From Dromiciops gliroides (Eukaryota; Chordata; Mammalia; Microbiotheria; Microbiotheriidae), in NCBI RefSeq assembly GCF_019393635.1, contig NC_057867.1, forward strand, positions 2,102,889 to 2,166,888: a stretch of DNA of 64,000 nt, given 5' to 3'. The notes under the pieces were generated by a model that saw only the letters and a program-made list of their open reading frames with translations, had not been told where the DNA came from and did not search any database. The position numbers and the translations under genes are program-made. Positions 1 through 61,735 of the stretch are shown here, in pieces. How positions within the stretch are numbered: position 1 is the first letter of the stretch; every line of letters starts with the position of its first letter.

Positions 1-645
1 GAGGGGGAAGGGTGATGAGAAAGTGACTTTTGACCTTCGCGAGACGCCGTAGGCCTGGGAAAACGTAAATGCTAGAACTTTGTTTCTTATATTTTATAAT
101 ATACGCTATCCTCGTCTGCGGGGCCTTAACTCCCGGCCTCTGCCAACTCTCTGAATACAGCTTACAGACGCTGGCAGGGCAAGCTCTGATGATGCCGGGA
201 ATCCTGATTAAGGGAAGGTCAACTGAGTTTGGCCTCGAGAGCCGACTGACATTCTGGGATTTGTAGTTCCGGGTTCTGTTCCCTATATTGGATAATATCT
301 CCTATTCTGGCCCGCGGGTCCTTGATAAGTACGTTGCACTAGCCCAGGCTGTGGCTCCTTCCCTGAAGCAAGATTACGGACGCCGAAAAGATGAGCTCTA
401 GAATTCCTGCGGACCCAGGAAAGTGAATCTAGGCTGGCTCTGAAAGCCCACTGGCATTCTGGGAGATGTAGTTCCGAGAGTTGAATTTCTCAAGCCTCTC
501 TTGTGTAGGTGGCAGCAAAGCTCCATGGTTGAATGTAAATGTGACGGGGAGGGGGAAAGGGCGATGAGAGGATGATTTTTGACCCTCTCGAGGCGCCGTA
601 GGCCTAGGAAAAAACCTAAATCCTAGGATCCCGTTTCTTAGCTCT
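1..645 (+). repeat. ZNF143/octamer tandem array, block 1
   Basis: First surviving block of the array. ZNF143/STAF-like sites lie at about 248-271 (CATTCTGGGATTTGTAGTTC, type A) and 452-475 (CATTCTGGGAGATGTAGTTC, type B), about 200 bp apart. An octamer-like ATGTAAAT sits at 533-540. CGCG-type boxes with the GCCGTAGGCCT tail occur at about 36-58 and 588-607. The left end runs off the window, so the array may extend further. The right end stops abruptly near 645, where AT-rich inserted DNA begins. Confidence 0.85.
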
Positions 646-897
646 GACAGCGACCTGAAAAGTAACAAAACAATAGAAGAGAATTAAGATCTTTAATCAG
701 GGCAGAGGAACTGTAACTCAGGGTATCACAAAGCAGACTGCTAGGTGTTATTGCAATATTTATCATTTGGTAATTAAATGAATACTAAAGCATCTAAAAT
801 ACTGCAATGAGCTGTGAGAAAGATCTTACTGTTTTGATCTGAAGTTATTGGTATTAAACACTAGTTAAATTAGTGTCTGAACTTGTCATATATAAGG

Positions 898-901
<4 letters not shown>

Positions 902-974
<73 letters not shown>
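902..974. repeat. (TA)n microsatellite
   Basis: About 36 uninterrupted TA dinucleotides in AT-rich DNA that follows array block 1. The surrounding 645-1360 holds no gene that I can see. Confidence 0.95.
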
Positions 975-977
<3 letters not shown>

Positions 978-1359
978 GAAGTTAGTGAACAATAGTAATT
1001 TGTGAGCTATCTTATATCACCTTAATGGGGAATCTGAGTTTACCTATGTTTGTTATGTAATCTGGAATTAGAACATGTGTAGAAATGCATGCAAACTAGT
1101 TGAGTCGCCTCAAAGATGTTCCCATTGTTTAAAGGAATTCTGAGGGCAGTATCCTATGTTTATGCTTACATGGTTAATAACTGAACCTGTTTTACTATAC
1201 ACAATTAAGTGAAATATTTGCTAGTCTGTTCTCTGTAGGCAATTTGGGATTATTTATACTTATTCCAACTCTTTTGTTGTTATTAAGCACCTTAAAGCAA
1301 ATTCATTTGTGTGATGTTAACCTTAGGGATGAAAAGCATCTATTTAACATAAGTACCAT

Positions 1360-1517
1360 GGGGCAGCTAGGTGGTGTAGTGGACAAAGCATCGGCCCTGG
1401 ATTCAGGAGGACCTGAGTTCAAATCCGGCCTCAGACACTTGACACTTACTAGCTGTGTGACCCTGGCCAAGTCACTTAACCCCCATTGCCCTGTCCTCCC
1501 AAAAAATTAATTTAAAA
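1360..1517 (+). mobile_element. Marsupial tRNA-derived SINE, copy 1
   Basis: Reference description for the family in this window: about 140 bp, with an A box in TGGCGCAGTGG, a B box in GAGTTCAAATCC, a conserved middle (GACACTTACTAGCTGTGTGA), and a GGGCAAGTCACTTAACC end before an A-rich tail. It was mobilised by L1 machinery, as shown by target-site duplications. This copy is flanked by aacataagtac (1346-1356 and 1518-1528). Confidence 0.93.
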
Positions 1518-1529
1518 AACATAAGTACA

Positions 1530-2444
1530 ATTATAGTTAATGCTTGCTATCTAGGCTAAGTGATCCTTGGGAAGTAAATTTACTTAAAGTACTGATTGTT
1601 CTGAAATAAGACATTATGTTATTATTCTTAGTCTGACTCCAGGTATGATCATCAACTGCCAATATGACACATGATGCCTGCAACCCTATGGGGTTTTTAC
1701 ATGTGTACACTGCAGGTGGAGTTCTCTTGGGAAAGGCTGGGAGAAGGGCAAAGGCCAAGGTAGGATTTTCCTGATTCAATTTCCCCAATGTGACATATGG
1801 AATGTAAACTATCCCACCTGGCTGATTTTAAACCTGGCACACTGCATTTGGCTGTCTATGTAACTCCTGCCTGGAGTGGGCATGAAGTTTGCGGATAGAC
1901 TTAGAACTGAAAAGCTGTTTGGGGAGTGGGATACATGAAACAGTAAATACGCCATATTCCTAATTTAAGATTATTGTCACTATTTGGTCCTAATCACATA
2001 GCAAGCAAATCTGGCACAATTAGGCTCCTGTTGTAAATGTCAAGGCACCCAACTTTCTAAGTACCTGTGACAGGTCTGCTTTGTTATCTGTTTGACTAAC
2101 CACAGTCTGGCTAATTAACTGCTTTGCTTTTCCAAGGAAAGCAAATCCTCTGACCCCAGCAAGCTGATCCACTGTATTCTTTGTAATGGTCAGTGTCTTC
2201 CGCACTTCCAGAGGATCCCTAACTGGGCCCAGGCCTACTAGGCTGCTACTACACCAGGAATACCCAAAGATGGGGACTGGGGACAGGGTTTAATAAGGGG
2301 TAACAGAACAGAGAACTAGGAGACTGCCCTAGGAAAGAATTAAGTTTCTCATAGTTTCACAAGATAAGTTGTTTTATGTAACAAGCAAAAGTACATAAAG
2401 AAAGCTTGGGAATCTCCGGAGGGGAGAGTTTGGGAGATCTACAT
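1530..2444. other. AT-rich non-coding DNA, probable old retroelement
   Basis: No gene seen. The stretch around 1650-1850 resembles 14160-14430 (shared pieces such as 'ggtaggatt' and the '(c)acttggttaattctgaacct' type sequence), so it is probably a dispersed LTR-type repeat. Family not assigned. Confidence 0.35.
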
Positions 2445-2858
2445 TGATAACCACAATTTATGGAGAATTGACTGAGCCTCACCTATTCGGCCATTCCCCG
2501 GTCAATGAATTGCCTGGGGCTGACCGATCTTTGTCAATTCCAGAATCTGGATTGGTTTTGTGGATCTCCCCCAAACGATCCCCTCCCAAAGATTCCCAAG
2601 CTTACTTCCCGGACTTTAAATTATTATGTAAAAAGATTCATTTACATGAAGTAGTTTTATCGGTGAGAAACTTACTTTTTCCCAGGGCAGTCTCATAGCT
2701 CCCTCTGTTCTCTTACTCCTTTGAAACCCTGTCTTCAGTCCCCATCTTTGGATATTCCTAGCAATCTGCTTTGTGATACTCCGAGTTACAGCTCCTCTGC
2801 CCAGATTAAAGACCTTAAATCTCCTATATTTATTGTTTCATTAATTTTCAGGTTGACA
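2445..2858 (+). repeat. 5' LTR of the gammaretrovirus-like ERV
   Basis: About 414 bp, TG...CA ends (tgataacc...gttgaca). It aligns with the 3' LTR over the 'cccatctttggatattcct' stretch and the region with the polyadenylation-type ATTAAAGACC. Confidence 0.8.
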
Positions 2859-3099
2859 TATTGGGAGCTCCTCTGGGATTTGAAGATTCCGTGTCCAGCC
2901 AGCCACCGTTTTTGACCTCCAGATGCTTGGTGTGAGAAGGAATCTTTTTGTGTTCCAGTCTGGACTCAAAATTCGGAGGCTCAGCCAGGGTAAGGGTCTC
3001 TCAAATTCAGAACTCGAACTCGCATCCTTTTTGCTTGAGTTCCTAAAAGCTCTTTGATCAGGGGTCTGGTTATGTCCATGGATAACTTGGTCATTTGGG

Positions 3100-3580
3100 T
3101 CTGTGAGGAAATGGGGTCTAGTCTCCTCTCAATAAGGATATAACAGTTACCATTCAAATTACATTTCTCTGGGCTTGTTTGAGGACAGAGGTCTCAGTCC
3201 CTCTCCTTCCCCTCCAGCAAACAAGATCACATGGTTCAAGGAACCCTGAGCTGGTCTCAATTAGGTCCTCTCCTGGACTATGTCCATATAAGGGAAGATT
3301 GAAGAAATGTCCCTGTGTCACCTCCCCCATTGGCTAAGAACCCAAAGAATAATTATGGAAATTAGGGTTAGGAATTCTGGTTTCTGGTTAGCTAGTTTTT
3401 GCAGATAGATTGTAACCCTTGAGTAATGGACCAAGGACTAGGGGTTAAAACAGGGCCCTTGAGCCCCCACTCTTTGTACCCACCAGCTGCACACTGGGTG
3501 ACCATTCTCGTGAGAATGACAATAAATGAGCCTTTGCCACATCACCACCGGCTGAATTCCCTCTCAATTCTGTTCTGACA
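3100..3580 (+). repeat. Possible nested LTR fragment
   Basis: A CT-rich stretch ends in an AATAAA signal (about 3522) followed by 'tgagcctttgccaca' and a CA terminus. This layout fits an R-U5 region of another LTR lodged in the ERV leader. Boundaries and family are uncertain. Confidence 0.35.
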
Positions 3581-3850
3581 GATCCCCCAAAATGGGATCG
3601 CTGCAGCTTGGATTTTGTTTTTATGGATCACATGTGGCTACTCTGGCAGGTCCCAAAAGGAAGGCTGCAGGGTTCTGTTTTCAAATCACATACTATATGA
3701 CTGCAAGTATTTTGAAAGTTAGCAGAATTTAAGTCTGACCCACAACACTGGCCACAGTGGGCTTTCCTTTTTGAGTTTACTCTTGATTCTAACAGCCCCA
3801 AACCTCGGTTTTTAGTGGGACTTTTTTCCCCTCTTTTCAATGGCATTTTG

Positions 3851-4005
3851 TTTTTGTTTTTTGTTTTTTTGCGGGGCAATGGGGGTTAAGTGACTTGCCC
3901 AGGGTCACACAGCTAGTAAGTGTCAAGTGTCTGAGGCCGGATTTGAACTCAGGTCCTCCTGAATCCAGGGCCGGTGCTCTATCCACTGCGCCACCTAGCT
4001 GCCCC
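3851..4005 (-). mobile_element. SINE copy 2
   Basis: Same family, reversed. It carries an exact 15-bp duplication ttcaatggcattttg at 3836-3850 and 4006-4020. Confidence 0.95.
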
Positions 4006-4495
4006 TTCAATGGCATTTTGAATCAACTAAGTGGGAATCTGAATCTGAACCCTCCTCCCATCCAGAAAATAGAGACTCAAAAAAAGGAGGAAAATAGGAT
4101 TTTTGTCCCTAAGAAAAAAGTCTCTAAATTTAATTTTTTTTAAAAAAGGGAAAAAAGAGGCCAATTGATCTGGCTCAAATTAATGGGTCTTTGAGGATAT
4201 CGAGAAGGACTTAATTTGTGCATGCTAAATTATCTTAAGAAACTTTTATCATTACTATTTATTGTTTTGGTGTCTGTCCTTGTAAAGCATTATTTGTGTT
4301 AAAATGTTCTGTGAGTGTGTGTGTGTCCCTTGCTATCCAAGCTAAGTCCCTTATTGAGTTAGCAATCCTCTTTGCCACTCAATGCAGAGTTGTCAGAAAG
4401 GTCATTAACATAGAGGGGAAGTTAGACGGCTGACTACAGCTTGATTTTATTTTTTTTTACCAGTTTTTAAGAAATTCGTTAAAACTTTAATTGGG

Positions 4496-4650
4496 GGGCA
4501 GCCAGGTGGCGAAGTGGATAGAGCACCGGCCCTGGCGTCAGGAGGACCTGAGTTCAAATCCGGCCTCAGACACTTGACACGTACTAGCTGTGTGACCCTG
4601 GGCAAGTCACTTAACCCTCAGTGCCCCTAAAAAAACAAAAACAACAACAA
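4496..4650 (+). mobile_element. SINE copy 3
   Basis: Flanked by aaaactttaattggg at 4481-4495 and 4651-4665. Confidence 0.95.
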
Positions 4651-5047
4651 AAAACTTTAATTGGGAATTGATCTCTAATATTAGATATTTTAAATCCAAG
4701 TTTTTATGGACCCAAAAATTAAGATTAATCAGTTTCTATTTAAATATGGAGAACTATCTGGTTTCTCTGTCACCAGTGTTTATCACCATGTAAAAATGAA
4801 TTTATTGATAATAATGGCCTCATATTGAAATGCTAGTAGATGGCCTTTAGATAATTTGAGAAATTTACCATTTGCGAATAGTTCCAGTTATAATTGAATT
4901 ATTTTGAGTAAAATATGTCTTCTAATAAGATGTGTGGTGGTTTGGTTTTTTTAAGTCAGGTGTTATTGTGATATTTGCATCAAGACAAAGTTTAAAATTT
5001 CATGGATCTGTAAATTTGTTAGTTGCATGATCGTAAAACAAGTTACT

Positions 5048-5220
5048 GGGGCAGCTAAGTGGCACAGTGGATAAAGCACTGACCCTGGATTCAGGAGGAC
5101 CTGGGCTCAAATCCAGCCTCAGACACTTGACACTTACTAGCTGTGTGACCCTGGGCAAGTCACTTAACCCCAATTGCCCTGCAAAAAAACCCAAACAAAC
5201 AAACAAAAAAAAAGGAAAGG
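5048..5220 (+). mobile_element. SINE copy 4
   Basis: Duplication aaaacaagttact at 5035-5047 and 5221-5233. The A-rich tail contains CAAA units. Confidence 0.95.
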
Positions 5221-5722
5221 AAAACAAGTTACTTCAGTTTACCAATCTGTAATGTGAATATTTGACAATTATAGAGTATTTGGGGTTATAAATCGTTACA
5301 GATGGAACTGTTAAAAGAATCTCAAGTACTTGAAACAATTTAGAAATATGGCATTACTGTGAATTCACAAAGAAGTGATCTCAAAGTCAGGCACACCTGG
5401 GTTCAAGTTTCCCCTCTGGGATACTCCTTACCTGGGTATAATGAATGTATGACCCTGGGAAAAATCACTTGGCTTCTAGGTGTTTCTAGAAAGTCACAGT
5501 GGGGAATGCATCTTTTGACATTTTCATTAGAAATTAACTGTAACAGTAATCATGGTGGGGGGGAGAAACGATACTTCATTAAGGTTGGTTCTGATTAGCC
5601 ACACTTGGTATTAAAATTCAGTTTGCCTGAATACCATAATTAATAGTAACATAGGGCAATATTTAAAAAGTAGATGAATGCTAGGCAAGTTTGTAATCCT
5701 GGAAATGAAAGAGAATATTAAG

Positions 5723-5764
5723 ACCCTGGGCAAGTCACTTAACCCTCATTGCCCCGCAAAAAAA
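5723..5764 (+). mobile_element. 5'-truncated SINE, 42 bp
   Basis: Only the 3' end of the element (ccctgggcaagtcacttaac plus tail) is present, yet it is bounded by gaatattaag at 5713-5722 and 5765-5774. It is therefore a genuine insertion truncated during reverse transcription, not a decayed copy. Confidence 0.85.
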
Positions 5765-6181
5765 GAATATTAAGGGAAGGGAAAAAAAGGTTAAAACAGC
5801 ATAAATATTTTAACAAAAGCACCAAATACCAGTAAAAACAAATTCCAGTGAAATATCCTATTATGAAATAAAACTTAAGCATCTATCAATGAAAAGTTAA
5901 ACATACAAAGCCATCATAACATTTGAATGCTAGGGGTATGAAAACTTGAAATACCTATGAAGCTTGAAAAGAAAAAAAAAGTAAAAGTTTAACAAAGTTG
6001 TTTTTAACTATCATACCATTATTAGTGTAATATTTCAATAGTATCTCACTGGTCTGACTTTAGATTAAGAAACTGCTTAACAGAGCTATTGAGAGAAACT
6101 ATGAAACAGCACCACAGCTAAATGGAACAAGTTTCTTTGGCATATTAGGGAAATCTCCAGTTTTCAGAATTTTAAAATTTG

Positions 6182-6939
6182 TTCTTGGAGATCTTCTCAG
6201 GGGCAGGGGGGGGCCTGAAATAAAGTAAATAATTATAATACAATCATGATCCTGAGTGTGGTTACCTAGCTGCCCCTTGACTTTACTTTTACCTAGCGGG
6301 CCTGCAGTACACTTGGACTGTTCTGCCTCAGAGAGCCCCTCCTATTTTTACCAAATTTTGAAAGCAGACCTCAATAACCTTAAGTTTCCTTTATAAGGTG
6401 GCATCTAGGTGGCACAGTGGATAAAGCACCGGCCCTGGATTCAAGAGAACCCGAATTCAAATCGGGCTTCAGACACTTGATACTTCCTAGCTGTGTGACC
6501 TTGGGCAAGTCATATAACCCTCATTGCCGGGCTCCCCTGCCCCCCCCAAAAAAAAAAGTAGCTATGAAATTTCCTTTATGCTCCACCCTCTCCAGTATGT
6601 AGATGATTTACTCCTTTGCTCCCTGGATTTAAAAAAAGCCTTCAAAAGCTGATTCCATTTTTCTCACCTCCTTCCTCAAAAAGGCCATAAATTATCTTGT
6701 TCTCAGGTTTTAAGTTTTTAGGACATCTGATATCAGCCAATAGTCTCTGTCTGGCAGGATTAGAAATCTCTCTACCATGCAAACCTAATGTAACTATCTC
6801 CAGGGGTAGAGCTCTCAACCCAGCCACTTTCCTCCCTGACAAAGGATGGGAACCCTGACCACACTCAGGATCATGATTGTATTATAATTATTTACTTTAT
6901 TTCAGGCCCCGCCCCCTGCCCCTGAGAAGATCTCCAAGA
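6182..6939. repeat. Long inverted repeat flanking the ERV RT fragment
   Basis: The left arm at about 6182-6261 and the right arm at about 6859-6939 are near-perfect reverse complements over roughly 80 bp (right arm reads cactcaggatcatgattg on the plus strand). The spacer of about 600 bp holds SINE copy 5 and the RT motif segment. Confidence 0.85.
6398..6560 (+). mobile_element. SINE copy 5
   Basis: Somewhat diverged copy ending in a C-run plus A tail. A short flanking match, tttccttta, is present on both sides. It separates the left inverted-repeat arm from the RT fragment. Confidence 0.85.
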
Positions 6940-7345
6940 AACAGATAGAAAACCCAGATTATTCCTGATACACTGGTGGTTTCTGCCTCCTAAATGATGC
7001 TGGGTATGCTGTGACCACCACTGAGGAAGTCATTGACCGATTCCTCAGGACAACAGGCCAAATTGGAAGCCCTGGCTCGAGCTTGTGAATTCATTAGCAA
7101 AAGGAAAACTAGGGAACATTTTTACATGGGCAGCAGGTATGTGTTTGGGGTGGTACATGATTTGGGGTGTTATGGATATCACGGTTCCTGACAGTCCTCT
7201 GGCATTCCCAGAAGTCTAGAGATTGCCCCTTTGTTGCTTGCAGCAGTGATTGTTATTAAAATTCCAGGATACTCCCATGAAGATTCTTCCCATGCCCCGG
7301 GTAAAGCCCTTGCTGACCTGCATACCAAACAGGCTGCTCAGAAAA
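6580..7345 (+). pseudogene. ERV pol remnant: RT (YVDD) and RNase H/connection
   Basis: Reverse-transcriptase catalytic motif YVDD at 6596-6607, followed by DLLLCS-like sequence, with frame loss soon after. From about 6965 a broken RNase H-like stretch is visible. At about 7255-7341 one frame reads KIPGYSHEDSSHAPGKALA, a typical retroviral connection-domain sequence. Stops and frameshifts throughout make it non-functional. Confidence 0.75.
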
Positions 7346-7639
7346 CCCTAAATCCCTATTAGTCTGTCTTCCTTTACATCTGCTGGGCCTGGTCCCAAAT
7401 GAAGACTGAGCCCAGCAGAGCTCTCTGTAATCCAAGAGACCATGTCCTGTCCCATCCAATACAGGTTAAGACTGGAAGGGTGCAAAAAGGCTAAACTCTG
7501 GGCTCTGCTACGGGCCAACTGGATGCCCAGTCCTCCCAACCTATGATAGAATACCTGCAAGTTACTGGAGTCCTGACTTCAAATACTGAAATGAGCTGTA
7601 CATGATGTTTATCTACCATGTGAGATCTGGCCTAAATAT

Positions 7640-8150
7640 AATGTAAGCAAAACCCTAAAACTTCCCCCCTGGGATATTCTTCCCTCTCCCTGGGGCCCCT
7701 TCTCCAGTCAGAAATAAAAATACTGGAGTTTCTCTTTTGGTGAACATCTGAGGGCTTTATTACATTCCTGCAAGAATGGGCACACACCCTAGAAGAGTGG
7801 CTTTTTATCCCTAAATCTAATGCAAAGTCCCTCCCTTCTTCCTCATTGGGTGAGGACAAACAGATGCACATTCTTCCCGAAATATCTCTACCTATTTCCC
7901 CCCAAAATGCCCCCCTCCCTGTTCAAGCATCCCAAATTAACCAGAGTACAGGCCTCAGGGCCACCTTCTGTAATCAACTTGTAGCTTCCTGAAAGACCCC
8001 TTTCTCGCCTCAAGGCCCCCTTCTTGGAAGACTCCCTCCCACTGTCTGACACTGGGTGAGATTAATATCCCTTTGTCTCTGAGACAGCATGATTCTGTTT
8101 CTAATTGTGATAAAAGCATTTTGTTTTGATTTCTCTCACACCCTCCTCCA
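7640..8150 (-). repeat. Possible minus-strand LTR-like insertion within the ERV
   Basis: On the minus strand an AATAAA (plus TTTATT near 7757) follows a C-rich region. The composition differs from the surrounding pol remnant. Ends are not defined. Confidence 0.25.
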
Positions 8151-8394
8151 CTTATAAGTTTGTATTAGTTATGGTTTGCATGTTCTCCCACTGGGTAGAA
8201 GCCTCCCCTTGCAGCAGGTAAGCCACTGTGATCCATTATAGCCAAGTGCTTATTAGAAAGGATTTTCCCACCTGGGGAATCCCTAGAAGAAGTTCACAGT
8301 TATAGAGGTACTTCTTTTACTGGTTCAATTGTCTCCCGATTGTTAGCCTGGCCAGTACTTCAACACTCAGTGCTTACCACCCCCAATCCTTGGG

Positions 8395-8510
8395 TCTGGT
8401 AGAACTTATCAATGGGATCATTAAGGTTCAGCCATGGGATCTGCCATGGCCAAAAGTCCTGCCCTTGGTTCTTCGGAACCTCAGGGGGACCCATTTTGGT
8501 AAGTCTTCTT
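8395..8510 (+). pseudogene. ERV integrase remnant
   Basis: A short frame containing AKVLPLVLRNLRGTHFGK resembles the distal integrase region of gammaretroviruses. It is interrupted on both sides. From 8510 to 9130 no further domain can be assigned, so env is either lost or unrecognisable. Confidence 0.55.
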
Positions 8511-9146
8511 TCACCCTCTGAAATCCCTGTCACCAGGCATCATTCCCCCCTCAACACCAAGGCCTCCCTTCTGTTCTATTGCAAATGACTCATCCAAACT
8601 CTACATCACTTTGACCATCTTGTTTCTCAGTCATTTTCTAAGAACTTATACTGAAGTTGGAATCCAGAGAGTGGGTCTATTGGAAAAAGGCAAGGATTCC
8701 CTACTTCCTAGTCCCTACAGTCCTGCTCACCAACCCCTCTGCTGCAAAACTGAAGCTTGACAACTGGATACAATCTCTTACCTGAAGAGAAGCTCCAAAT
8801 GGATTGCCCAGTAACCCGGAAAAAGAAGCAGACAACAGCAGGGTGGACCACTTTCCCAAGATACCGGCCGTGGCCTTAGAATCTTGTGCTTGTGCCCCAG
8901 CTTACATTAAACTTTTGCAAACTACATCCCTGTACCAGATACTGAATCCAGCTTAGTTGTTACTCTTACTGTATTATCTATTCCCATGAGCAAATTCCTT
9001 TTCAAAGTTGGTAAATGTGTATAAAATCAACCCCTTTATAAATTGAGTCAACTTTGACAAGGTAACTCTGGACCCTTGGTACTTTGGGCACTACTTTTTG
9101 GTCAGCGACAGAATTCCCGAATTCCTCTTGACCAAGAGGAAAAAAC

Positions 9147-10134
9147 TATAACCACAATTTACTGAGGACCGATTCTCCATTCCTAGGCCAGTGAGTTGCC
9201 TGGGGCAGATGAATCTTTGTCAATTCCAGACTCTTGATTCATTTTATAGATCTCCCCTGTTAATAAGAACGTATGGACCACCTGGATTTGATGGAGATGC
9301 CTTATTATCCAAGAGAGTTTTATGAAACCCTGTATTAATAGGCGCAAAACGTCCTTCAACTCCAAACTGAAGCCAGATAGCTCGCAGATAAGTCCCTACC
9401 TGGTGACTTCTTTCCCCAGGATAGTAAATCCCTATCTTATGGGGACATCTGGGCGTCCTCATCCTTGCCAAACTCCTTTTTTGGGATCATATAATCTTAT
9501 CATAGCATTTCTGTATTTCTTGTTTAAACTGCTTTGCATTAAATCCATTCTTGTTACAGTATTTGCTTTGGGGTTGATTTGTATCATGCTAATGAAACTG
9601 ATAACACTCTATAACCAGTGAGCAAAGAAAGCTTATATACCCATAGAGAGAGGGAGTATTTGAGCTTCTTTTCAAGGGGTCTCCCCATGATTCATGCTTG
9701 CTTGTTCTTGGAACAAATAAACTGATACTATGTTTTTCCTGGCTGTCTCTGATCTATTTTTTTTTATGGAGGAGACATTAGGAAAATAATTTTTCTAATC
9801 TGTTGTTTTTTGTAAGAGACAGGTATAAAAACAAAAATTGACAGCCCCCCCAAACAAACTATCCCCTCCCAGAGGTTCCCAAGCTTACTTCCTGGACTTT
9901 AGGTTATTATGTAAAAAGATTCCTTTAGTTAAGTAGTTTCTGTGAGAAACTTGCTTTTCCCAAGGGCAGTCTCATAGTTCTCTGTTCTGTTACCCCATAT
10001 AAACCCTGTCTTCAGTCCCCATCTTTGGATATTCCTAGCAATCTGCTTTGTAATACTCCGAGTTATAGCTCCTCTACCCCATTAAAGACCTTAAATCTCC
10101 TATATTGATTGTTTCATTAATTTTCAGGTTGACA
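9147..10134 (+). repeat. 3' LTR of the ERV, interrupted by a second LTR
   Basis: The 5' part lies at about 9147-9256 and the remainder at about 9844-10134. The latter includes ATATAAACC (about 9993), ATTAAA (about 10081) and the terminal gttgaca. A purine tract lies immediately upstream. Confidence 0.75.
9257..9843 (+). repeat. Nested solo LTR inside the 3' LTR
   Basis: About 587 bp starting tgttaataag and ending attgaca, inserted between C-runs of the host LTR (possible CCCC duplication). Contains TATATACCC (about 9634) and a polyadenylation-type AAATAAAC near 9715. Confidence 0.55.
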
Positions 10135-10139
10135 ACACA

Positions 10140-10252
10140 ACCAGTAGCTAGAACTGAGAAAGTCTGGTCAGCCCCAGGCAATTCAATGGCCGGGCAATGG
10201 AAGCTAGGTGAGGATCAGTCGATTCTTACTAAATTGTTTGTCACTGATAAGA
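10140..10252 (-). repeat. Inverted fragment of the same LTR
   Basis: Reverse complement of the first roughly 110 bp of the LTR at 2445 (shared ggtcagccccaggcaattca). It lies directly after the 3' LTR and before array block 2. Confidence 0.7.
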
Positions 10253-10264
10253 TGCCCCATCCAG

Positions 10265-11220
10265 ATCTATGGGACCTTGGCTCCAGGCCTCTGGCTCCTC
10301 TCTGAGTAGAACTTACAGACGCTGGTACGGCGAGCTCCGAGATGCCGGGAATCCGGATTAAGGGAGGGTCAATAGAGTTTAGCCTTGAGAACCGACTGGC
10401 ATTCTGGGATTTGTAGTTCCCGGTTCTGTTTCCTATAACGCATACTATCTCTTATTCTGGCCCACGGGCCCTTGTCCTGGCCCCTTCCCCGAAGCGAGGT
10501 TATAGGCACCGAAAGGGCGAATTCTAGAGCTTCCTATAATCATGGGGGACCAGGAAAGGGAATCTAGTGAGGCGCTGAACGTCCAGTGGCATTCTGGGAA
10601 ATGTAGTTCCGAGATTTAACTTTAATTAAGCGTCTAGTCTATGGGGCCCTCAAAGCTTCATGGTTGGATGCAAATATGACTGGAGGGGAGGGGTGATGAG
10701 AAATCGATTTTTGACCCTCGCGGGGCGCCGTAGGCCTAAGAAAAAATGTGTATCCTGGAGGCTTGTGTCTTACATTCAATTATATATCCTACCCTCCTCT
10801 GCGTGAGCCTTGGCTCCTGATCTCTGCCCCTTGGCCTCTGCCCCAGTACTGAGGAGAGCTTAGAGACGCTCCAGCGCGAGTTCTGGGGATGCCGGGAGTG
10901 GTGCATCAAGGGAGTGTCACCCGAGTTTGGCCTTGACAGCCGACTGGCATTCTGGGACTTGTAGCTCGGGGTTGTATTTCCTGTACCTCATGGTATCCCC
11001 CGTTCCGGCCCGCGAGCCCCGATCACCTTGCCCCGGCCGGGCTGTGGCCCCTCCCCCGAAGCGAGGTTACCGGCGCCCCAAGGGCGAGTTCTAGAGCTTC
11101 CTGGTGTAGGAAGACAGCTCAGCGCCGAGTGGGCCTGGTGACTCCGTACTTCCAGTACGTTCCCGGCGGCCTGTAGGAAAGGGCAGCTGTAGGCCCGGGT
11201 CATGGCGGGGCCGAGGGCGC
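10265..11220 (+). repeat. ZNF143/octamer tandem array, block 2
   Basis: The array resumes about 50 bp further along the consensus than it stopped in block 1, as expected for an insertion with a small deletion. ZNF143-like sites lie at 10399-10421 (type A), 10589-10612 (type B) and 10948-10968 (type A, slightly degraded). There is a perfect octamer ATGCAAAT at 10668-10675 and a CTCGCGGGGCGCCGTAGGCC box near 10717. CpG content is still high. The last 100 bases (11120-11220) leave the array consensus and contain an ATGGCGG start context at 11202. Confidence 0.85.
10399..10421 (-). promoter_or_regulatory. Best ZNF143/STAF site of the array
   Basis: On the minus strand the sequence reads ACTACAAATCCCAGAATGCC, a full match to the long ZNF143 (STAF, SBS-type) motif known from vertebrate CpG-island promoters. 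It is given separately as the reference copy; the other twelve sites differ from it by one to a few bases. Confidence 0.75.
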
Positions 11221-11279
11221 TTAGGCTTCAGCAGCTGGACTTCTGGGCATTTTCCCGCTCTTATGATCGTTGTCTATAA
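11202..11279 (+). other. Candidate short ORF or first exon, 25 codons
   Basis: ATGGCGG with a C-rich Kozak-like context at the edge of array block 2. It encodes MAGPRALRLQQLDFWAFSR and ends at a TAA inside a TATAAAAG box at about 11272. The composition is that of a housekeeping first exon, but I do not recognise the protein. It may be a relic of the promoter from which the array arose, or chance. Confidence 0.2.
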
Positions 11280-11925
11280 AAGCCGCAACGCCCATCCCCA
11301 CCCAGCAGCTGTCTGCCTTGGGTGCTCCAATAAATCCCTCTTTCCTCAGTTTCCCGAGTTTGCCTTGTTCACTGGGGCGAGGCCCTGACCAACTTTTTTT
11401 GCGACAATTTTGGGGACTTTGGTGGGAATGGGGCATGTCACCTGGGTGGCTCTCACTGACTCCCACAGCTGGCACCAGGCTTTTGTCCCATCTGGGGTGG
11501 GAGTAGACCCCCCCCTTCCCCCTCCCTCCACCAGAAGTCAGCCATGAAGTGATCAGAGAATCATACTCCCCAAACTCGGTAAGGAAAAGAACTAGATCCC
11601 CAAACCAAATTTTGACTCTTTCTAATTTATGCCTCATATGCAGAGAGCCTTATAAAAGATGGGCTTGGAGGCAGAGTGTGGGTGCAGCCCCTCCTTTGCT
11701 AGGGAATACCAGTATTCCTTTGTGATCTCTTCCTCACTTCCTTTGGCAAGCTGTGAAAGCTTGACACTAGGAAACCCTGTGGGTTTAGGGACTGGAAAAT
11801 TGTGGGAAGCAAATTTGGCCAGATAAAAGAAGGGGCCTTGGATTAGTTAGGAGCACGTTAAAAACCAGATTTAAAGATGCCAAAAGTCTAGACGATTTGG
11901 GATTATTGGTGCTGTTGAAAGTGTC
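11230..11925 (+). mobile_element. LTR/ERV 5' fragment next to array block 2
   Basis: TATAAAAG at about 11272, AATAAA at about 11330, then a T-run and a G-rich 'ggggactttggtggg' stretch as seen where an LTR meets a retroviral leader. The upstream U3 is short or missing. Open frames here (for example 11221-11637 minus) are not recognisable proteins. Confidence 0.45.
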
Positions 11926-11928
11926 TTT

Positions 11929-13189: not shown

Positions 13190-13425
13190 TGGCATTAGGA
13201 GCATATGCTCGGAAACTGCACTATCAGGAAAACCTGAGTTCAAATTTGGTCTCAGAAACTTATTAGCTGTGTGACCAGGTTGCCTCAGTTTCCTAATCTG
13301 TAAAATGGGATGTTGACAGCACCTACTTCCCAGGGTTGTTATGTAGAGCAAATGAAATAAATTGTAAAGTGCTTGGCATAGTGTCTGACACATGGTAAGC
13401 ATTATAGGAATATTAGCTATTATTT
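13190..13425 (+). mobile_element. MIR/THER1-like SINE
   Basis: tRNA-like head, then 'tgcctcagtttcctaatctg taaaatggg'-type core and the 'gttgttatgtagagcaaatg' and 'aaagtgcttggcatagtgtc' 3' blocks typical of mammalian MIR-class elements. Confidence 0.8.
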
Positions 13426-13617
13426 TTATTACGTGTAATTACTCTTATACTTACTGGGTTGTAAAATGCTGAAGTAATAAAGTCTGAGAAACTAGGATGG
13501 CTCCCAATCAAACTGGAGGACTTACAAGTTTGCTTATAGTAAAAAGTGAATTTATCTGAGATTATTTGGCTATCACTTATGAGAATTATGAAATTTTACC
13601 TGTTAACAAATAGTAAG

Positions 13618-13773
13618 GGGCAGCTAGATGGCGCAGTGGATAGAGCACCGGCCCTGGAGTCAGGAGTACCTGAGTTCAAATCCGGCCTCAGACACTTAAC
13701 ACTTACTAGCTGCGTGACCCTGGGCAAGTCACTTAGCCCCAATTGCCTCACTAAAAAAAAAAAAAAACAAAAA
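13618..13773 (+). mobile_element. SINE copy 7
   Basis: Near-identical flanks aacaaatagtaag (13605-13617) and aacaaataataag (13774-13786). The tail is a long A-run. Confidence 0.93.
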
Positions 13774-13789
13774 AACAAATAATAAGTGT

Positions 13790-15515
13790 TGAAGTTCCTT
13801 CTTTGAAACAATTTAGTAACAAAAAACCTTAGATTCAAAGGTTTCAATGTTGACTTTAGGGGTTAATAGGCAATACTGATATCTGTTAGTCTGGAGACTT
13901 ATAGTAGCCAATATTTTGGTGGGGGGGGCGGGGTTGAGTCAATTTTCATGTATTCACTGTATGTGTGAAACTCCAGAATGTGATTATTCTTAATTACAAA
14001 TGAAGGATAAATGAAATATCTTTATGTGTTCTCATTGTTAACTGTTACTGAAACCTGAGAAAATTAATGATTAGCATAGCCCTGAGCAGTGATTAGTGAA
14101 ATTTTGCTATTTGAGGGAGAATCTCTTGGGACTGGAATGTGACATTGATCTACATTTTGACTTCAGGTATGATTGTCTGAATTGTCATGAAGACAATATC
14201 TCACCATTCAGGGGGAATGCCATGTGCTTCCCAAAGGGAGTATTGTCAGAGAACTGCTACAGGCGGATGTCTGTTCCTGGGAAAAGTTGAGAGGATGACC
14301 CTGTGAAGGTAAAGGTAGGATTCTCTTGACTCACTTTTTCATTGTGCTATTTCCTTTCTGAACAGGAAACTTTCCACTTGGTTAATTCTGAACCTGCCTT
14401 TGATACCCTGCAAATAATGTTAATCTTTGCTGCGTGATTGGCTGTTAACTCTAACTGATGCCTAGGATCAAACAGAGCTAAGGGAGCTTTTTCTCCTGTT
14501 AGGACTTCTGTCAGATCAATTTGTCCTTGAAGGAACAGTCATAACATTGTCCTAACCATAGGCATGGTGGGAACAAGAGCCTGAGAATATGACCTATCGT
14601 TAAACAGTAAAATGGCTCCTCTGGGAAATACTCATGTATACACTCGTGTGACCATGGACCATCTCTTGACACTAAGTCTTCTTTGCTCTGTTTCTTTATA
14701 TATCTGGCCTGGCCTAAGTGTGGCGGGGAGATCTATGTCTGTCCCGCCCCCCTCCCCTGAGACAAATCTATTTACTAGCATACTGGCATGCTCCTCTTTC
14801 TTCTGTATCTTGGTGACTTTTTCAGACGTGGGATCATCCTTATGGATGATCTTCCTCTCTACACCATATCCCTCCTTTTTCTTTCATAGCAAATTTCTAT
14901 AATCAGGGTAGGTGAACTATAGAAGTGTTTAGTCTTGCAATACTAAATCTATTAATTAAGGGATAAATACTAAACTATCTGGGTTATTATAATAGGATGC
15001 AAGTAGGAAGAATGTTCTTATTTTTAATTTGAATTTGTGGTCAATTCCATATACTAAGTTACTGAATGAATGAGCCCTTTGATAGAATTTTCCATAACAG
15101 GTACAGTGGTCTGGAAAGAAAGAGCAAGTGATATGTAAAAACTGAAAGTCTCTGAATTTGCAGGTGAATTATGGGTTCCTAATTTGCTGTTCTGCTTATA
15201 ACTCTGTAGTTAACAGGGTTATATCCATAAGATTTGAGTTAGTTTCACCACATGAACTAGTTACTAGAAAGGCAAACTTAAGAGGTTATATTAAATTGTA
15301 TTGAGTATAGTTACTGGCAGATTTTAGCAGAATTCCCTAGGAATCTCTGCAAGTGACTTGGAATGAGAGAAGGAAATCTACTTGGAAGCTCTGAGAACAA
15401 GCCCTATTCCAGAATGTTCAGGAGATAGTGTTTCCAGGGACTAGACAAGTCTATCTGGGATTCAAGTTGAAATGTGCTGATGAAATGGACATTGGGAGTG
15501 GCTTATCAGGTTACA
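13790..15515. other. Non-coding stretch, probable old LTR-type repeat
   Basis: No gene seen. Part (about 14160-14430) resembles 1650-1850. Short frames such as 14612-14902 have no recognisable domain. Confidence 0.35.
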
Positions 15516-15524
15516 AGGATGCTA

Positions 15525-15672
15525 CTTTTTTTTTTTGCAGGGCAATGGGGGTTAAGTGACTTGGCCAGGGTCACACAGCTAGTAAGTGTCAAGTGTCTGA
15601 GGCCGGATTTGAACTCAGGTCCTCCTGACTCCAGGGCCGGTGCTTTATCCACTGTGACATCTAGCTGCCCCC
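15525..15672 (-). mobile_element. SINE copy 8
   Basis: Duplication aggatgcta at 15516-15524 and 15673-15681. Confidence 0.92.
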
Positions 15673-16424
15673 AGGATGCTATTTAATATTGATGATCATT
15701 ATTGTATTACTTGGCTTTTGTTTCATGGTGTCTATTTGTGGTTCTTTCCTTTCCTGGCAGAGAGGTGTGCCCTAATCCCTCTTATGTATTGTTCAAGATC
15801 AGGGCCATTCCTCTTGAAACTTTTGGTCAACTGAACGTTTTCTATTTATATTAAACTCACCTGACCAAAACCTGACTTGTGGAATACTAATGTTAACTTT
15901 TGGACATTTCTCAGGTGGAAGCCAAGGAGAAGTTTGAAGCTCTCCAGATTACCTAAGAGAGTATTTCCCTGACCCTGAGTTTTCTTGGTTCCCTTGGTGA
16001 TATTTAACCCTCCCCTCTCAAATTAGTCCATGGCGAACCCTCTACACAGTCAAACTGTAACCTAACAGTTTATCTATAGAATCTATTTAATAAGGTTTGT
16101 CTCCTTAAGGGCTGTACAATATCATGACTCTGCTTAACCAAGTGTGTTTGACTTTTATGACACTGGAGAAAATGTGGGATTATGCACTTGTAATGTACAT
16201 AGATGTCCTGTTGTAAGTTGAAGTCCCCTATCTTACAGCCACTACTGCTTTCTCAAATAAATTCATCATAAGTAACAGAGATTAGGATAATGCTGTTGAG
16301 CATAGAAGAGAGACATGTTGTACCACAAGTATGTTTAACACCAAATCAGGGCTAGTGGAAAGGCAGCTGTTTGTGCTGTCATTCTGGTGACTCCATTTGA
16401 AAACCTTGTCTAAGGTAGACTGTG

Positions 16425-18590
16425 GGAAGATGGCAGAATAAAGAAGAGGGCAGAAAAGTACCTGGCTCTTCCAAACTCCCCTCCAGATAACTTAAAGAAA
16501 TGCCTCAAGTTGAATTTTAGAGTTAGAAATGATCAAAAGTATTCATCCCAAGACACCTTCGGAAGATATTAGAAAAGATCTGACCTATGGGGAGAAGAGT
16601 ACAGATAAGCCTTGGGAACAGCTGTGTTGGCTGATCAGGGGAAGATTCCAGGAGGTCCTTCCCTGATATTAGACTGAGGGCCTAGAGCATTGACAAGACA
16701 TGGTCTCAGGCTGTGGATGCAAATGAGGAGTGAGTACATGCCAGTGAGTAAAGTCCTAGACAAGTAGGGGCCCTGCTCATGGTTCTGGAATGGGGAGGAC
16801 TGATAATAGTGCTTTGGGGAGAGTGGGGTTCCTGATTTCAGCTCCAAAGAAGAAAAGTATACTGACACTTGTGGCCACAGGAGAATGGAGACTGGTGGGG
16901 AATTGCTGAGACTTTGGGGAATGAGAGTGTTTGCAGTGGCACTAGTGCCAAGCAGGGAGTGGGGTGGGGCTGGTCTTGGTTCAGGGATGGAGAGAAGTAT
17001 CTGAGGTCACTCATATAATAAAAATGGCGATTCTACCTAAACTAATCTCTTTGAATAAGTAATTGAATTGATGCCATTCCAATTAAACTACCAAAAATTA
17101 TTTTGAAATTATTTTCTAGAAAAAAATAATAACAAGAACAGAAAGTCAAGAATATCAAAGTAACTAATGAAAAATGTAAAGGAAGGAGGTCTAGCAGTAT
17201 CAGATCTTAAAATATACTATAAGATGGTAATTATCAAAACTACCTGGTACTGACCAAGAAATAAAATGGTGGATTAGTGGAATAGATTAGTGGCTTAGGT
17301 ATTTAATATATTAGTCGTAAATTATTACAATAACCTCATGATTGATAAATACAAAAATCTAAGTTTTGGGGATAAGAACTCACTGTTTTGATAAAAATTG
17401 CTGAGAAAACTGGTAAGAAGTCTGGCAGAAACTAGGAATAGACAAATATTTTTCACTGTTTTCCAAGATAAGGTTAAAATTGATACAGGGGGCAGCTAGG
17501 TGGCGCAGTGGATAGAGCACCAGCCCTGGAGTCAGGAGTACCTGAGTTCAAATCTGGCCTCAGACACTTGACACTTACTAGCTGTGTGACCCTGGGCAAG
17601 TCACTTAACCCCAACTGCCTCACCAAAAAAAAATGGATACATGGCCTAAACATAAAGGGAGATATCATAAGTAAATTAGAGAAGTAGGGGTTATGTTATC
17701 TATTAGATTTATGGATGAGAAGAATTTGTGAATAAATGAGATTGATAGCATTGTGGGATGTAAAATGGATAATTTTTATTACATTAAATTAAAAAGGTTT
17801 CACACTAATAAAACCAATGTAACCAATATTAGAAGGAAATCAGAAAATTGTGGGGAAAATTTTTATAACCAGTTTCAAGAATATGAGTCTTTCCCCAATT
17901 GACAAAAGGTCAAAGGATATGAACAGTCAGTTTTGGAAAAAACTCAAAGCTATATATAGTCATATGAAAAAAATGCTTTAACTCACTATTGATTAGAAAA
18001 ATGCAAATTAAAACAATTCTGAGATACCATCTCACACCTATCAGACTGTCTAAAATAACAAAAGGGAAATTATAAATGCTGGAGGTGATGTGGAAAAATC
18101 GGAACACTAATACACTGTTGGAACTGTGAAGTGGTCCAACCATTTTGGAGAGCAATTTGGAATTAGGCTCAAAGAGTATAAAACTATTTATACCCTTTGA
18201 CCCAGAAATACCACTATTAGGTCTGTCTTCCAAGGTGATCGTGTGAAAAAGGAATGGATCTATATGTACAAAACCATTGCAGCTCTCTTTGTGGTGACAA
18301 AGAACTGGAAATTGAGAGGGAATGGCTAAACCAGCTGTGGCATATGAGTGTAATGGAATACCACAGTATTGTAAGAAATGATGAGCAGGCTGATTTTAGA
18401 AAGACATGGAAAGAGTTGTATGAAATAATGCAAAGTGAAACAAGCAGAACGAAGAGAATGTTGTATACAGCAGCAGCAATATTGTTCAAAGACTAATGGT
18501 GATTGACTAAGCTATTCTGAATAATATAATCATGCCTATCAATTATGAAGGACTAAAGAAAAGAACTAAGCTATGGAAGTAAACATATTG
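16425..18590 (+). mobile_element. L1 LINE with internal deletion
   Basis: The start (about 16425, 'gggaagatggcagaataaag') resembles a marsupial L1 5' UTR. From about 17030 the sequence is the C-terminal ORF2 region ('gagataccatctcacacct', 'acccagaaataccactatta', 'gtaatggaataccacag', 'aagaaatgatgagcaggc'). Most of ORF1 and ORF2 is missing and the rest is full of stops. SINE copy 9 interrupts it. The 15.7-16.4 kb stretch before it holds no feature that I recognise. Confidence 0.75.
17488..17631 (+). mobile_element. SINE copy 9 (inside L1)
   Basis: Flanks ttgataca and tggataca are near-duplicates of L1 sequence, so the SINE entered after the L1. Confidence 0.9.
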
Positions 18591-18596
18591 TATAAG

Positions 18597-18800
18597 GGCA
18601 ACTAGCTGGTGAAATGGATAGAGCACTGGGCCTGGAATCAGGAAGACCTAAGTTCAAATCTGACCTCAGACATTAACTGTGTGACTCTGGGCAAGTCACC
18701 TCACCCTATTTGCCTCTGTTTCTTCATCTGTCAAATGAGCTGGAGAAGGAAATGGGAAACCACTGCAGATTTTCTCTGTCAAGAAAATCCCCAATAGGGT
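18597..18800 (+). mobile_element. Longer CORE/MIR-type SINE
   Basis: Sense copy of the family at 12768: tRNA-like head, 'ctggagaaggaaatgggaaa' block, and a degraded 3' end. Confidence 0.75.
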
Positions 18801-18879
18801 TATGAAGAGGCCCACAGGACTGAAGAAGTTAAGACTTTCTAACTTAAGGCCCAGAGCTCAATCCACTGAGCCATCTAGT

Positions 18880-19006
18880 CCCTTCCTAAGTGAACAGAAG
18901 TTAAGTGAATTGCCCAAGATCACACAGCTAGCAAGTGTCTGAGGATGGATTTGAACTTAGGTCTTCCTGACTCCAGGCCCACTACTCTACTGAGCCATCA
19001 AGCTCT
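18880..19006 (-). mobile_element. Old SINE fragment (reverse)
   Basis: Contains 'cacacagctagcaagtgtct' and 'gaacttaggtcttcctgact'. More diverged than the young copies. It ends where array block 3 begins. Confidence 0.75.
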
Positions 19007-20386
19007 ATGATTGAATACAAATATGAATGGGTAAGCAGTGTTGTACGTCTGATTCTGACCCTCGCGAGGCGCCGTACTCCTGGGAAACCGCACGTCCTGG
19101 GGGCCTGTTTCTTATAAGATGCTGCATCCTGGTCTTGGGGACTTTGGCTCTCGGCCTCTGCCCCAGAACTTAGGAGAGCTTACAAGCACCGGCAGGGCGA
19201 ATTCTGGAGATGCTGGAAATTGTGCAGCAAGAGAAAATTAACCTTAAGGCTTTGGCTTTGAGAGCCGAGTACAATTCTGGGATTTGTAGTTCCGGGTTGT
19301 TTCCTATGTCAGATAAGGTTCCCTATTCCGGCCCGCGGGCTCGTGGTACCTTGTCCCAGCTCAAGCTGTGGCCCCTTCCCTGAAGTGAGGTTACAGGCGT
19401 CGAAAAGGCGAGAACTTCCTAAAATCGTGTGGGCTCAGGAGAGTGAATCTAGAAGGCTGTGAATGTTCACTGTCATTCTGGGAGATGTAGTCCCGAGATT
19501 TGAGTTTATCAAGCCTCTCTTCGGTAGGCGGTACGAAAGAGCTATGGATGAATGCAAATGATTTGGGGAGGAGCGATGAGCGACAGATTCGTCTGACCCT
19601 CGTGAGGCACCGTAGGCCTCGGAAAATGTGGGTCCTAGGGCCCTGTCTCTTATACTTGATGATTTGCTCCATCCTGGTCTGTGAGACCTTGGTTTCCGAC
19701 CTCTGCCCTCGAACTGAGGAGAGCTGACAGATGCCGACAGGGCGAGTTGTAGGATTTCCTGTAATCGTGGGAGCCCAGGAGAAGGAATCCAGTCTTGCTT
19801 TGAAAGCCCAGTCGTATTCTGGGAGTTGTAGTTCTGAGATTCGAGTTTAATCAAGCCACTATTTTGCAGGGGGCAGCAAAGTTCCATGGTTGAATGCAAA
19901 TACGACTAGGGAGGAGCAATTGGCAGCTGATTCTGACCCGCGCGAGACACCGTAGGTCTAGGAAGCTCCAGGGCCATGCTCCCATTTACTGTATTTAATA
20001 GCATCTCCTATCGTGGCCCATCGGATCTTGGCTCGGAGCCTCTGCCCTGGAATTTAGGCGACGTTACAGACGCTGAAAGAGGTAGTTTTAAAGATTTGGG
20101 GAATCGTGAGGACCCTATAAAGTGAATCTAGTTTGGCTTTGAGAGCCCATTGGCATTCTGGGATTTGTCGTTCCGGGACTCTGTTTCATATACTTGATAA
20201 TATCTATCCTGGCATGTCGTCCCTTAGCCCCTGGCTCCGGCCCAGGCGGTCGCCTCTACCCTTAAGCAAGGTTAGAGACACCAAAGGGGCGAGCTCTGGA
20301 GACTCCTGGAAGCCCGTGGGCTCGGGGGCGGGAAATAATGTAGCTTTGAAAGCGCACTGGCATTCTGGGAGTCCGCGATTTCAAAC

Positions 20387-20409
20387 ATCGCGTTGCTACA
20401 CAACGCGAT
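20387..20409. other. Perfect 9-bp inverted repeat with 5-base loop
   Basis: Arms ATCGCGTTG and CAACGCGAT around CTACA, followed directly by a CCAAT box (aaccaatcgg). It lies just after a ZNF143-like site. Related but imperfect versions follow the sites at 20688 (near 20718) and 21293 (near 21328), so the feature is partly conserved between units. Confidence 0.7.
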
Positions 20410-20869
20410 TAGGAAACCAATCGGGGGCAGCCACAATTGACGCTTGAATCCTACTGGGGAAGGGCAATGGGCTGCTGATTTTGACCCTCGCGAGGCACCG
20501 TAGGCCTAGAAAAACCCGACTTTTGGAATCCTCTTTCCCGTACTTGATAACATCCTCTATTCTGGCTCCCGGGATCTGCCCCGGAACTTAAACGAGTTTA
20601 CAGACGCCGATAGGGCGACTTTTGGAGATTGCCGGAATTGTGCGGGTCCAGGAGAGGGAATCCAATGGGACTTTGACAACCCACTGGCATTCTGGGGTGT
20701 GTAGTTACGAGATTGCAAACATCGCGACCTTATACAACACTGAATCTACTTTTCTGTTGGTTGAATGTAAATGAGAATGGGGAGGGGTGATAGACTTATG
20801 ACTGACCCTCAGTAGGCATCATAGGCCTAGGAAATCCTATGTCCTGGGTCCTTATATCCTATACCTGAT

Positions 20870-21125
20870 GTTATTGTTCACAGTCGTTTCAGTCGTGTCT
20901 GACTTTTCGTGACCCCATCTGGTGTTTTCTTAGCAAAAATACTGGCATGGTTTGCCATTGCCTTCCCCAGCTCATTTTACAAAATGAGAAAATACAGGCA
21001 AACAGGATTAAGGGATTTACTTAGGCTCATACAGCTAGTAAGGATCTGTGGTCAAATCTGAACTCTGGCTTTCCTGACTCCTGGAAAACTATCTATCCTC
21101 TATCTATTGGGGCACAGCTGCCCTA
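20870..21125 (-). mobile_element. Longer CORE/MIR-type SINE inside the array
   Basis: Starts with 'cagtcgtttcagtcgtgtct', the reversed 3' end of the long SINE, and ends in 'ggcacagctgccct'. It splits one array unit and accounts for the 600-bp gap between the ZNF143-like sites at 20688 and 21293. Confidence 0.8.
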
Positions 21126-21410
21126 AAACTCCGTGATTAAATGCAAATGGATAGGGCGATGGACTAATTTTGACCCTCACGAGCCACCTTAGCCCCAGGA
21201 AAATCCAAATCCGGGGCCCTGTTTCCTAAATTTGGTAACATTTTCTGTTGGGCCCCCGGAGAATGAACTCAGTGTGGCTCTGACAGCCGACTGGCATTCG
21301 GTGACTTGTAATTCCGAGATTTCAAACATCGCGATCTTCTACGGTAAGCGCGTAGGGAGCCATTGTAGGCACAAGAAAACGCCGAGTTTGAATCCAAATG
21401 CAAACGGGAC

Positions 21411-21432
21411 GGGGGGGGGGGGGGGGGGGGGG
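21411..21432 (+). repeat. Pure G22 homopolymer
   Basis: Twenty-two uninterrupted G within the last array unit, just after an octamer variant. It could be a true mononucleotide run or its length could be affected by assembly. Confidence 0.9.
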
Positions 21433-21959
21433 AAAGCACCGGCTGCTGATTTTGACCCTCCCGAAACGCCGTAGTCCTAGTTTCCCCTCCCTCCCCACAC
21501 ACACCTTCCAGGCCTGCATTCCCGTTCCCTATGTTTTATAAATCGTTTATCTTCCGCTGAGAGGTCTCGGCCCCGAGGTTCTGCCTCGGAGGCGTACCCT
21601 GCCCTAAAACAAGGTTCCAGATGCCAACACGGCAAGCGCTAGAAATTTCAGGTCCTTCGGGCTTGGAAAGTGAATCCGGCGCGGTTTCGAGAGTCCAATG
21701 GAATTCTGGGACTGGTAGTTCAGAGGCATGTTACTAGTCTTCTGGGATAAGAAGATTGAGCTCTGGATTTTTCCTTCTCCTCAGCTCGCATACTAGGAAA
21801 GCTCATCCCATATCCCTCCCACTTCCTCAATCTCCTTAGTCCCTTCCTTCTCCCGTCCACCTGAGCTACCCTCAGCGATAGGCACAGACTTGGGGGTTTT
21901 CCATCACCACAAATGTTCAGCTCCATGTCCTTGAACTCTTAAATTCTTTTCTCTGGCCA

Positions 21960-27794: not shown

Positions 27795-28375
<581 letters not shown>

Positions 28376-49366: not shown

Positions 49367-49425
<59 letters not shown>

Positions 49426-49714: not shown

Positions 49715-49783
<69 letters not shown>

Positions 49784-60562: not shown

Positions 60563-61735
<1,173 letters not shown>

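Follow-up and report, generated by a model that had tools for sequence, protein, structure and literature searches.

Regulatory tandem repeats on the X chromosome are known for CTCF, and one of them, the DXZ4 macrosatellite, is a CpG-rich array of nearly identical, CTCF-bound units of ~3 kb. CpG-island promoters of the ZNF143/THAP11 (SBS2) type, in turn, carry one or a few sites. Here we analyse a tandem array of ZNF143/THAP11-type sites that lies within the EFNB1-NALF2 interval of the marsupial Dromiciops gliroides, in a stretch of 64,000 bp (the window; C7:2102889-2166888, C7 being contig NC_057867.1). Like DXZ4, the array is X-linked, tandem and CpG-rich, but its units are ~540 bp long, 25–30% diverged and interrupted. 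It resembles ZNF143/THAP11 promoters in having the same long site with its ACTACA half, in its CpG richness and in the overlap of TTCCGG with three sites, but holds 14 sites with no known gene start. Two half-unit types that alternate inside the array, and single half-units that have diverged at its right edge, resemble alpha-satellite-like higher-order arrays; unlike these, the array is not centromeric as far as known, amounts to only ~4 kb and retains letters specifically at its sites.

The nearest kind is the local repeats of Firre, R0 especially, which, according to PMC4820808, are likewise X-linked, confined to one locus and mutually diverged. R0 is described there as having DNA enhancer activity and binding promoter-type factors, with recruitment of CTCF, YY1, SP1 and RAD21. 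Unlike R0, the array has a ZNF143/THAP11-type site as its conserved part, no CTCF-like site was seen and no long non-coding RNA (lncRNA) is known; ZNF143 does not occur in the text of the Firre paper. A ZNF143 tandem array was not described in the titles and abstract openings among the matches listed, and no literature combining 'marsupial' and 'ZNF143 motif' was found, in a search with most subscription journals outside its coverage. In the main text of two marsupial methylation papers, ZNF143 is absent from PMC12221971 and FAM155B from PMC7934952. General background is provided by PMC4082612, PMC3403934 and PMC10329844.

Sites, units and their confinement to one locus

The window contains 12 matches to CATTCTGGGANNTGTAGTTC at up to three mismatches, where 0.04 are expected, plus one half-site, every one on the + strand; 12 matches were reached in none of 100 shuffles, and the ZNF143-type long motif ACTACANNTCCCAGAATG is thus repeated well above chance. 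The sites start at 250, 455, 10400, 10590, 10948, 19273, 19474, 19815, 20154, 20361, 20688, 21295 and 21702, with four exact (250–269, 455–474, 10400–10419 and 10590–10609), nine at no more than one mismatch (among them 10948–10967, with one) and 12 at no more than three. Near the right edge, 21295 has three mismatches and 21702 two, and 20361 consists of the first half only (six mismatches). An earlier note on this DNA had counted thirteen copies: thirteen were confirmed, with the reservation that 20361 is a half-site. A fourteenth, exact site lies just outside the left edge (C7:2102792, window −96), which brings the array total to 14, and scanning both strands at up to four mismatches found no further site in the adjoining 100 kb on the left or 19 kb on the right. 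At three sites (250, 19273 and 20154) TTCCGG overlaps the end of the site, an arrangement shown by ETS-linked promoters. A scan of IMG/VR for the motif gave no matches.

Self-comparison and alignments resolve a unit of ~540 bp, made up of two half-units, A and B, which are ~200 bp long, carry one site each and have diverged from each other, plus a ~140-bp spacer. Eight within-block spacings (205, 190, 358, 201, 341, 339, 207 and 327) fit the alternation of ~200 and ~340 bp and the unit length proposed in the earlier note, but two near the right edge (607 and 407) depart from it. The sites do fall into three stretches, as that note had it, but these are pieces of a single array running from window −375, where unit sequence begins, to 21739. 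All pieces are on the + strand. Block 1 (1–646, extending left to −375) holds site 250 in half-unit A and site 455 in half-unit B, together with spacers, and block 2 (10243–11107) holds half-units A and B, a spacer, another A and a partial B, both by self-BLAST and array-unit profile matches. The left part of block 3 (18989–20869, from the motif scan, tree and profile matches) carries sites 19273, 19474, 19815, 20154, 20361 and 20688, its right-hand half-units being more diverged, and its right edge (21104–21739, from the motif scan and profile matches) carries 21295 and 21702.

The spacer has a second conserved module around TGACCCTCGCGAGGCGCCGTAGGCCTAGG, whose best 18 columns show ~81% identity versus 62% spacer-wide in ten aligned copies; an example lies at 580–610 (+), with equivalents in other spacers. 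The CTCGCGAG core of this module, intact at two places, resembles the BANP motif. In a tree of 12 half-units, those at 455, 10590 and 19474 group together (support 99/94), as do those at 250, 10400, 10948 and 19273 (92/92), while the more diverged half-units beyond 19500 on the right belong to neither group; of the nine inner branches, only one clears the two support thresholds, and the half-unit of site 21295 was left out. The pattern looks like that of an array that grew locally and has an old edge.

The distribution of the unit was examined by searching the 3.30-Gb, 17-contig assembly, a search that scores best candidates only, so that diverged copies can be missed. Querying with 861 bp of block 2 produced 12 first-look candidates and, in all, 14 matches. 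Six of the matches lay at the array locus; the remaining eight were 34–35 bp long and covered only the motif and its left neighbour. As a control, a long terminal repeat (LTR) from the window gave 2,999 first-look candidates in the same search, 40 of which were scored. With the block-2 and exact-motif queries the repeat unit was thus confined to one locus, and neither the block-2 unit nor the adjoining stretch at 11105–11400 showed the dispersed copies seen for the LTR. The earlier note had named membership of a genome-wide transposon or LTR family as what would overturn its reading, and so far the search speaks against such membership.

The exact motif itself occurs 37 times in 3.3 Gb (reversed control, 0), five of these in the array, and the only other copy on C7 is 12.5 Mb away; at one mismatch there are 190 occurrences (reversed control, 5), of which about the first 100 were listed. 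Of the 32 exact sites outside the array we retrieved 16, together with two near matches, and recovered the motif in 16 of the 18, the exact ones. For 15 of these 16, the mutual similarity extends beyond the 20-mer (to at least 31 bp, and in at least ten to more than 100 bp), as in copies of an interspersed repeat; for the sixteenth (L038) it does not. Motif conservation within this set is meaningless, because having the exact motif with a single spacer (TT) was the basis on which all were chosen. CpG observed/expected (o/e) around the 16 sites is 0.00–0.25. We noted, for this CpG-poor repeat, that CATTCTGGGATTTGTAGTTC lies ~25 bp from one edge of the shared sequence (L021-L038, C1-C7, around position 2000 each), and the CATTCTGGGATTTGTAGTTC repeat may have seeded single ZNF143-type sites across this marsupial genome. 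Array half-unit and interspersed repeat have ~35 bp around the motif in common and no more that is visible, and a common origin of this piece is possible.

Age of the array and retention of its sites and CpGs

Flanks of the same half-unit type are 26–30% apart, and seven same-type unit pairs gave Kimura two-parameter (K2P) distances of 0.30–0.37 (non-CpG 0.24–0.32), whereas the LTR pair of a provirus inserted in the array differs by 0.091 over 280 columns. The array duplications are therefore older than the provirus and, at a mammalian rate of ~2–2.5 × 10^-9 per site per year, would very roughly be 60–75 million years old.

Against this background of decay the sites stand out. Pairwise identity among the 13 window sites is 85% over the 18 motif columns, the best-conserved run of that length, versus 58% in the upstream flanks, and in a leave-one-out comparison 216 of 234 motif letters matched the majority, versus 1454 of 2099 flank letters. 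Eleven of the 13 sites are better kept than their own flank (one-sided, uncorrected P < 0.05); 11 retain at least 16 of the 18 motif letters, and nine retain 17 or 18. When only half-units of the same type were compared (four sites each for A and B, one being the site left of the window, with tied-majority columns and CpG-touching flank columns skipped), departures from the majority numbered 3 of 144 in the motif versus 117 of 996 in the non-CpG flank (P = 2e-5). These tests treat letters as independent and concern the extent of retention, not its timing.

The CpGs have been kept as well. CpG o/e is 0.69 at 1–650, 0.65 at 10244–11400, 0.70 at 19000–20880 and 0.78 at 21100–21725, versus 0.13–0.18 in the intervening and following DNA, which bears out the CpG richness claimed in the earlier note, at a GC content of only 0.51–0.56. 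The ratio of CpG to GpC loss is 1.61 for 13 half-units (bootstrap 1.26–2.09; 1.64 for type A and 0.98 for type B) and 1.03 for the spacer (0.74–1.49), versus 5.59 (3.89–8.0) for 33 copies of short interspersed elements (SINEs) in the window; this compares rates and not equal ages, the array being far older than the SINEs. The same-type and CpG counts used 13 of 15 half-unit hits (omitting 21128–21331 and the partial 10975–11107), and the spacer counts 10 of 11 copies (omitting 21325–21516, with a copy crossing the window edge entered as two rows). The CpG behaviour of MAR1-like copies (four copies, 13 CpG comparisons) was too thinly sampled and was not used. The array has thus retained CpGs over evolutionary time as CpG islands do, and the simplest explanation would be that it has been unmethylated in the germline for most of its life.

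Insertions, adjoining sequence and neighbouring genes

In unit coordinates, block 1 stops at 89 (window 640) and block 2 resumes at 96 (window 10247), so that the 9.6 kb separating the two blocks entered an array that had been continuous. The insertion (647–10242, from self-comparison and a genome-wide LTR family) consists of nested LTR-retroviral copies and SINEs. Self-comparison places LTRs on the + strand at 2440–2858 and 9855–10134, and pieces of one − strand LTR, at both ends of the insert, at 653–745 and 10134–10246. The nested copies at 2256–2858 and 9855–10246 lie in opposite orientations and are members of one genome-wide family. It is on the LTR copies that the retroviral identification is based, because a piece that looked integrase-like by eye gave only a weak match to one integrase (E = 0.22) in a PDB search. 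We dropped the alternative that blocks 1 and 2 are independent insertions of one family, as unit positions 89 and 96 fit one split array; no clean target-site duplication was established. Further right, a MAR1-like SINE interrupts the array at 20870–21103, with part of the unit missing around it (self-comparison), and the self-comparison coordinates leave ~120 bp of unit missing between blocks 2 and 3.

A CpG-rich stretch on the + strand (11105–11400; CpG o/e 0.63 for 11105–11391) abuts block 2, contains TATAAAAGCC at 11275 and is a candidate core promoter; CpG-poor, SINE-containing DNA follows it. By eye it had also suggested an LTR end (TATA, AATAAA, TG...CA), which we discarded because the genome search returned it as its own single candidate and the window holds no second copy either. 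It is possible that the stretch, with its TATAAAAGCC, is the promoter of an unannotated transcript heading towards NALF2. Between the blocks there are 66 stop-to-stop pieces of at least 62 aa, 33 per interval, and a Pfam scan of ten of these gave no match at E < 0.1.

The first coding exon of NALF2 (FAM155B) lies in a CpG island at 60563–61738 (+) and was identified by PDB matches to FAM155A; a Pfam match to it was not found, and on the strength of its sequence and its X linkage we take the gene to be NALF2 and not NALF1. Its first ATG is 38.8 kb right of the array, so that the placement upstream of NALF2 given in the earlier note is accurate. An ephrin-B1 exon on the − strand lies ~23 kb to the left, with a CpG island, probably the ephrin-B1 promoter, between it and the array, which therefore sits between two divergent genes. 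Both genes, known as X genes, are on one 85-Mb contig (C7), and this supports the X location that had been proposed. Between the array and NALF2 we also observed long microsatellite and pyrimidine-rich arrays (TCTG, TCCA, CCTCC) at 27808–28374, 49236–49781 and 54579–54887.

Possible roles of the array

What stands is a real and old array that has preserved its sites and CpGs, with no second locus found in the genome and with a function that we can only infer. We consider it slightly more likely than not that the array, private to this locus and built of ZNF143/THAP11-site modules in tandem, arose by local duplication, has been kept CpG-island-like and unmethylated in the germline, and serves as a multi-promoter or enhancer platform between EFNB1 and NALF2; of the roles suggested in the earlier note, an amplified promoter fits the evidence best. 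That sites and CpGs were kept while the rest of the array decayed suggests that it may still be active as a group of sites that turn transcription on. Binding of ZNF143 to the SBS motif occurs mostly at active promoters (PMC11687419), and the protein stimulates initiation and shares a nearly identical motif with THAP11 (PMC11118474); for these reasons we read the array as an initiation platform. Looping is the less likely role.

We infer protein binding, absence of methylation, transcription and a target gene. After formation of the array by local duplication, ZNF143, together with THAP11 using a near-identical site, would bind many of the 14 co-oriented sites, presumably joined there by HCFC1. 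The bound factors would keep the units open and unmethylated and would recruit initiation by RNA polymerase II, so that the array would act as an orphan multi-promoter or as an enhancer for the EFNB1-NALF2 interval, possibly with a non-coding transcript driven from the TATA-bearing, CpG-rich stretch at 11105–11400.

Several points weigh against such a platform. The motif alone is no proof of function, because 15 of the 16 exact sites fetched from elsewhere lie in CpG-poor repeat sequence; sites 20361 (P = 0.78), which lacks its second half, and 20688 (P = 0.22) are no better kept than their flanks; the genome search, scoring best candidates only, can miss diverged copies of the unit; and retention of motif and CpGs could date from an earlier active period. 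The last point leads to the strongest competitor, that the array is a relic, once an active, unmethylated ZNF143 platform (or unmethylated merely through ZNF143 still binding) and now of no use to the host. We regard this as a genuine possibility, although a doubtful one. The divergence of same-type flanks, the breaking of the array by insertions, the degenerate right-edge sites and the array's having no recognised protein gene would all suit a relic; it fits poorly with a CpG o/e still at 0.65–0.78, with CpG decay only 1.0–1.6 times that of GpC versus 5.6 in the window SINEs, and with the many sites retaining nearly all of their motif letters.

A bolder version of the platform reading, unlikely in our view, would make the array a marsupial-specific X element in which selection maintains a dozen or more co-oriented ZNF143/THAP11 sites, an orphan initiation hub built on ZNF143 rather than CTCF. 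Such a hub would control either EFNB1/NALF2 or an lncRNA comparable to Firre, and its action might depend on sex.

We think it more improbable still that the array is an X-architectural element comparable to DXZ4 or the Firre repeats, anchoring loops or the inactive X through ZNF143, one of the two roles suggested in the earlier note. X linkage, confinement to one locus, tandem arrangement and CpG richness would all accord with it, and a looping role for ZNF143 is reportedly argued in some papers (PMC7154149 and PMC7782510). Firre local repeats are likewise private to one X locus (PMC4820808). According to PMC11687419, on the other hand, ZNF143 acts independently of looping and CTCF, earlier co-occupancy having been traced to antibody cross-reactivity; since papers argue both ways, its looping role is disputed. 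The array is also short for such a role, at ~4 kb in all, and no CTCF-like site was found in the window at one mismatch to a core consensus. Because 0.96 such matches are expected by chance, this null shows only that there is no array of CTCF sites, and weaker or motif-less binding is possible. The architectural reading thus goes unsupported.

That the units belong to a transposon or LTR family inserted here, for instance as tandem U3 repeats of an LTR, seems to us very improbable. TATAAAA, AATAAA and LTR-like ends, seen by eye in the stretch after block 2, and the ~35 bp common to half-unit and interspersed repeat might point that way, and an enrichment of ZNF143 sites is reported for several kinds of human LTR (PMC5529029); but the unit and the stretch at 11100–11420 were found at one locus only, versus 2,999 first-look candidates for the window LTR, and the diverged array edge is typical of local arrays. 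Least credible of all is amplification of the distal element (DSE) of small nuclear RNA (snRNA)-type promoters, for although the DSE of an snRNA gene is made up of an octamer and an SPH/Staf site, and although the array has six octamer-like ATGYAAAT boxes and every half-unit carries a Staf site, no adjacent snRNA-class gene emerged from the Rfam and tRNA scans (no match at gathering score in the whole window, 11 weak matches far below gathering scores at 18900–21800 under a relaxed threshold, and no tRNA).

If the platform reading is correct, it would suggest that a repeat otherwise in decay can be shielded from germline methylation, over tens of millions of years, by a homotypic array of sites for an initiation factor. 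The identical 20-mer is also present in CpG-poor repeats elsewhere in the same genome, so that nature offers a test of whether CpGs are protected by ZNF143/THAP11 sites on their own. It also represents a concrete candidate control element for this interval of the marsupial X.

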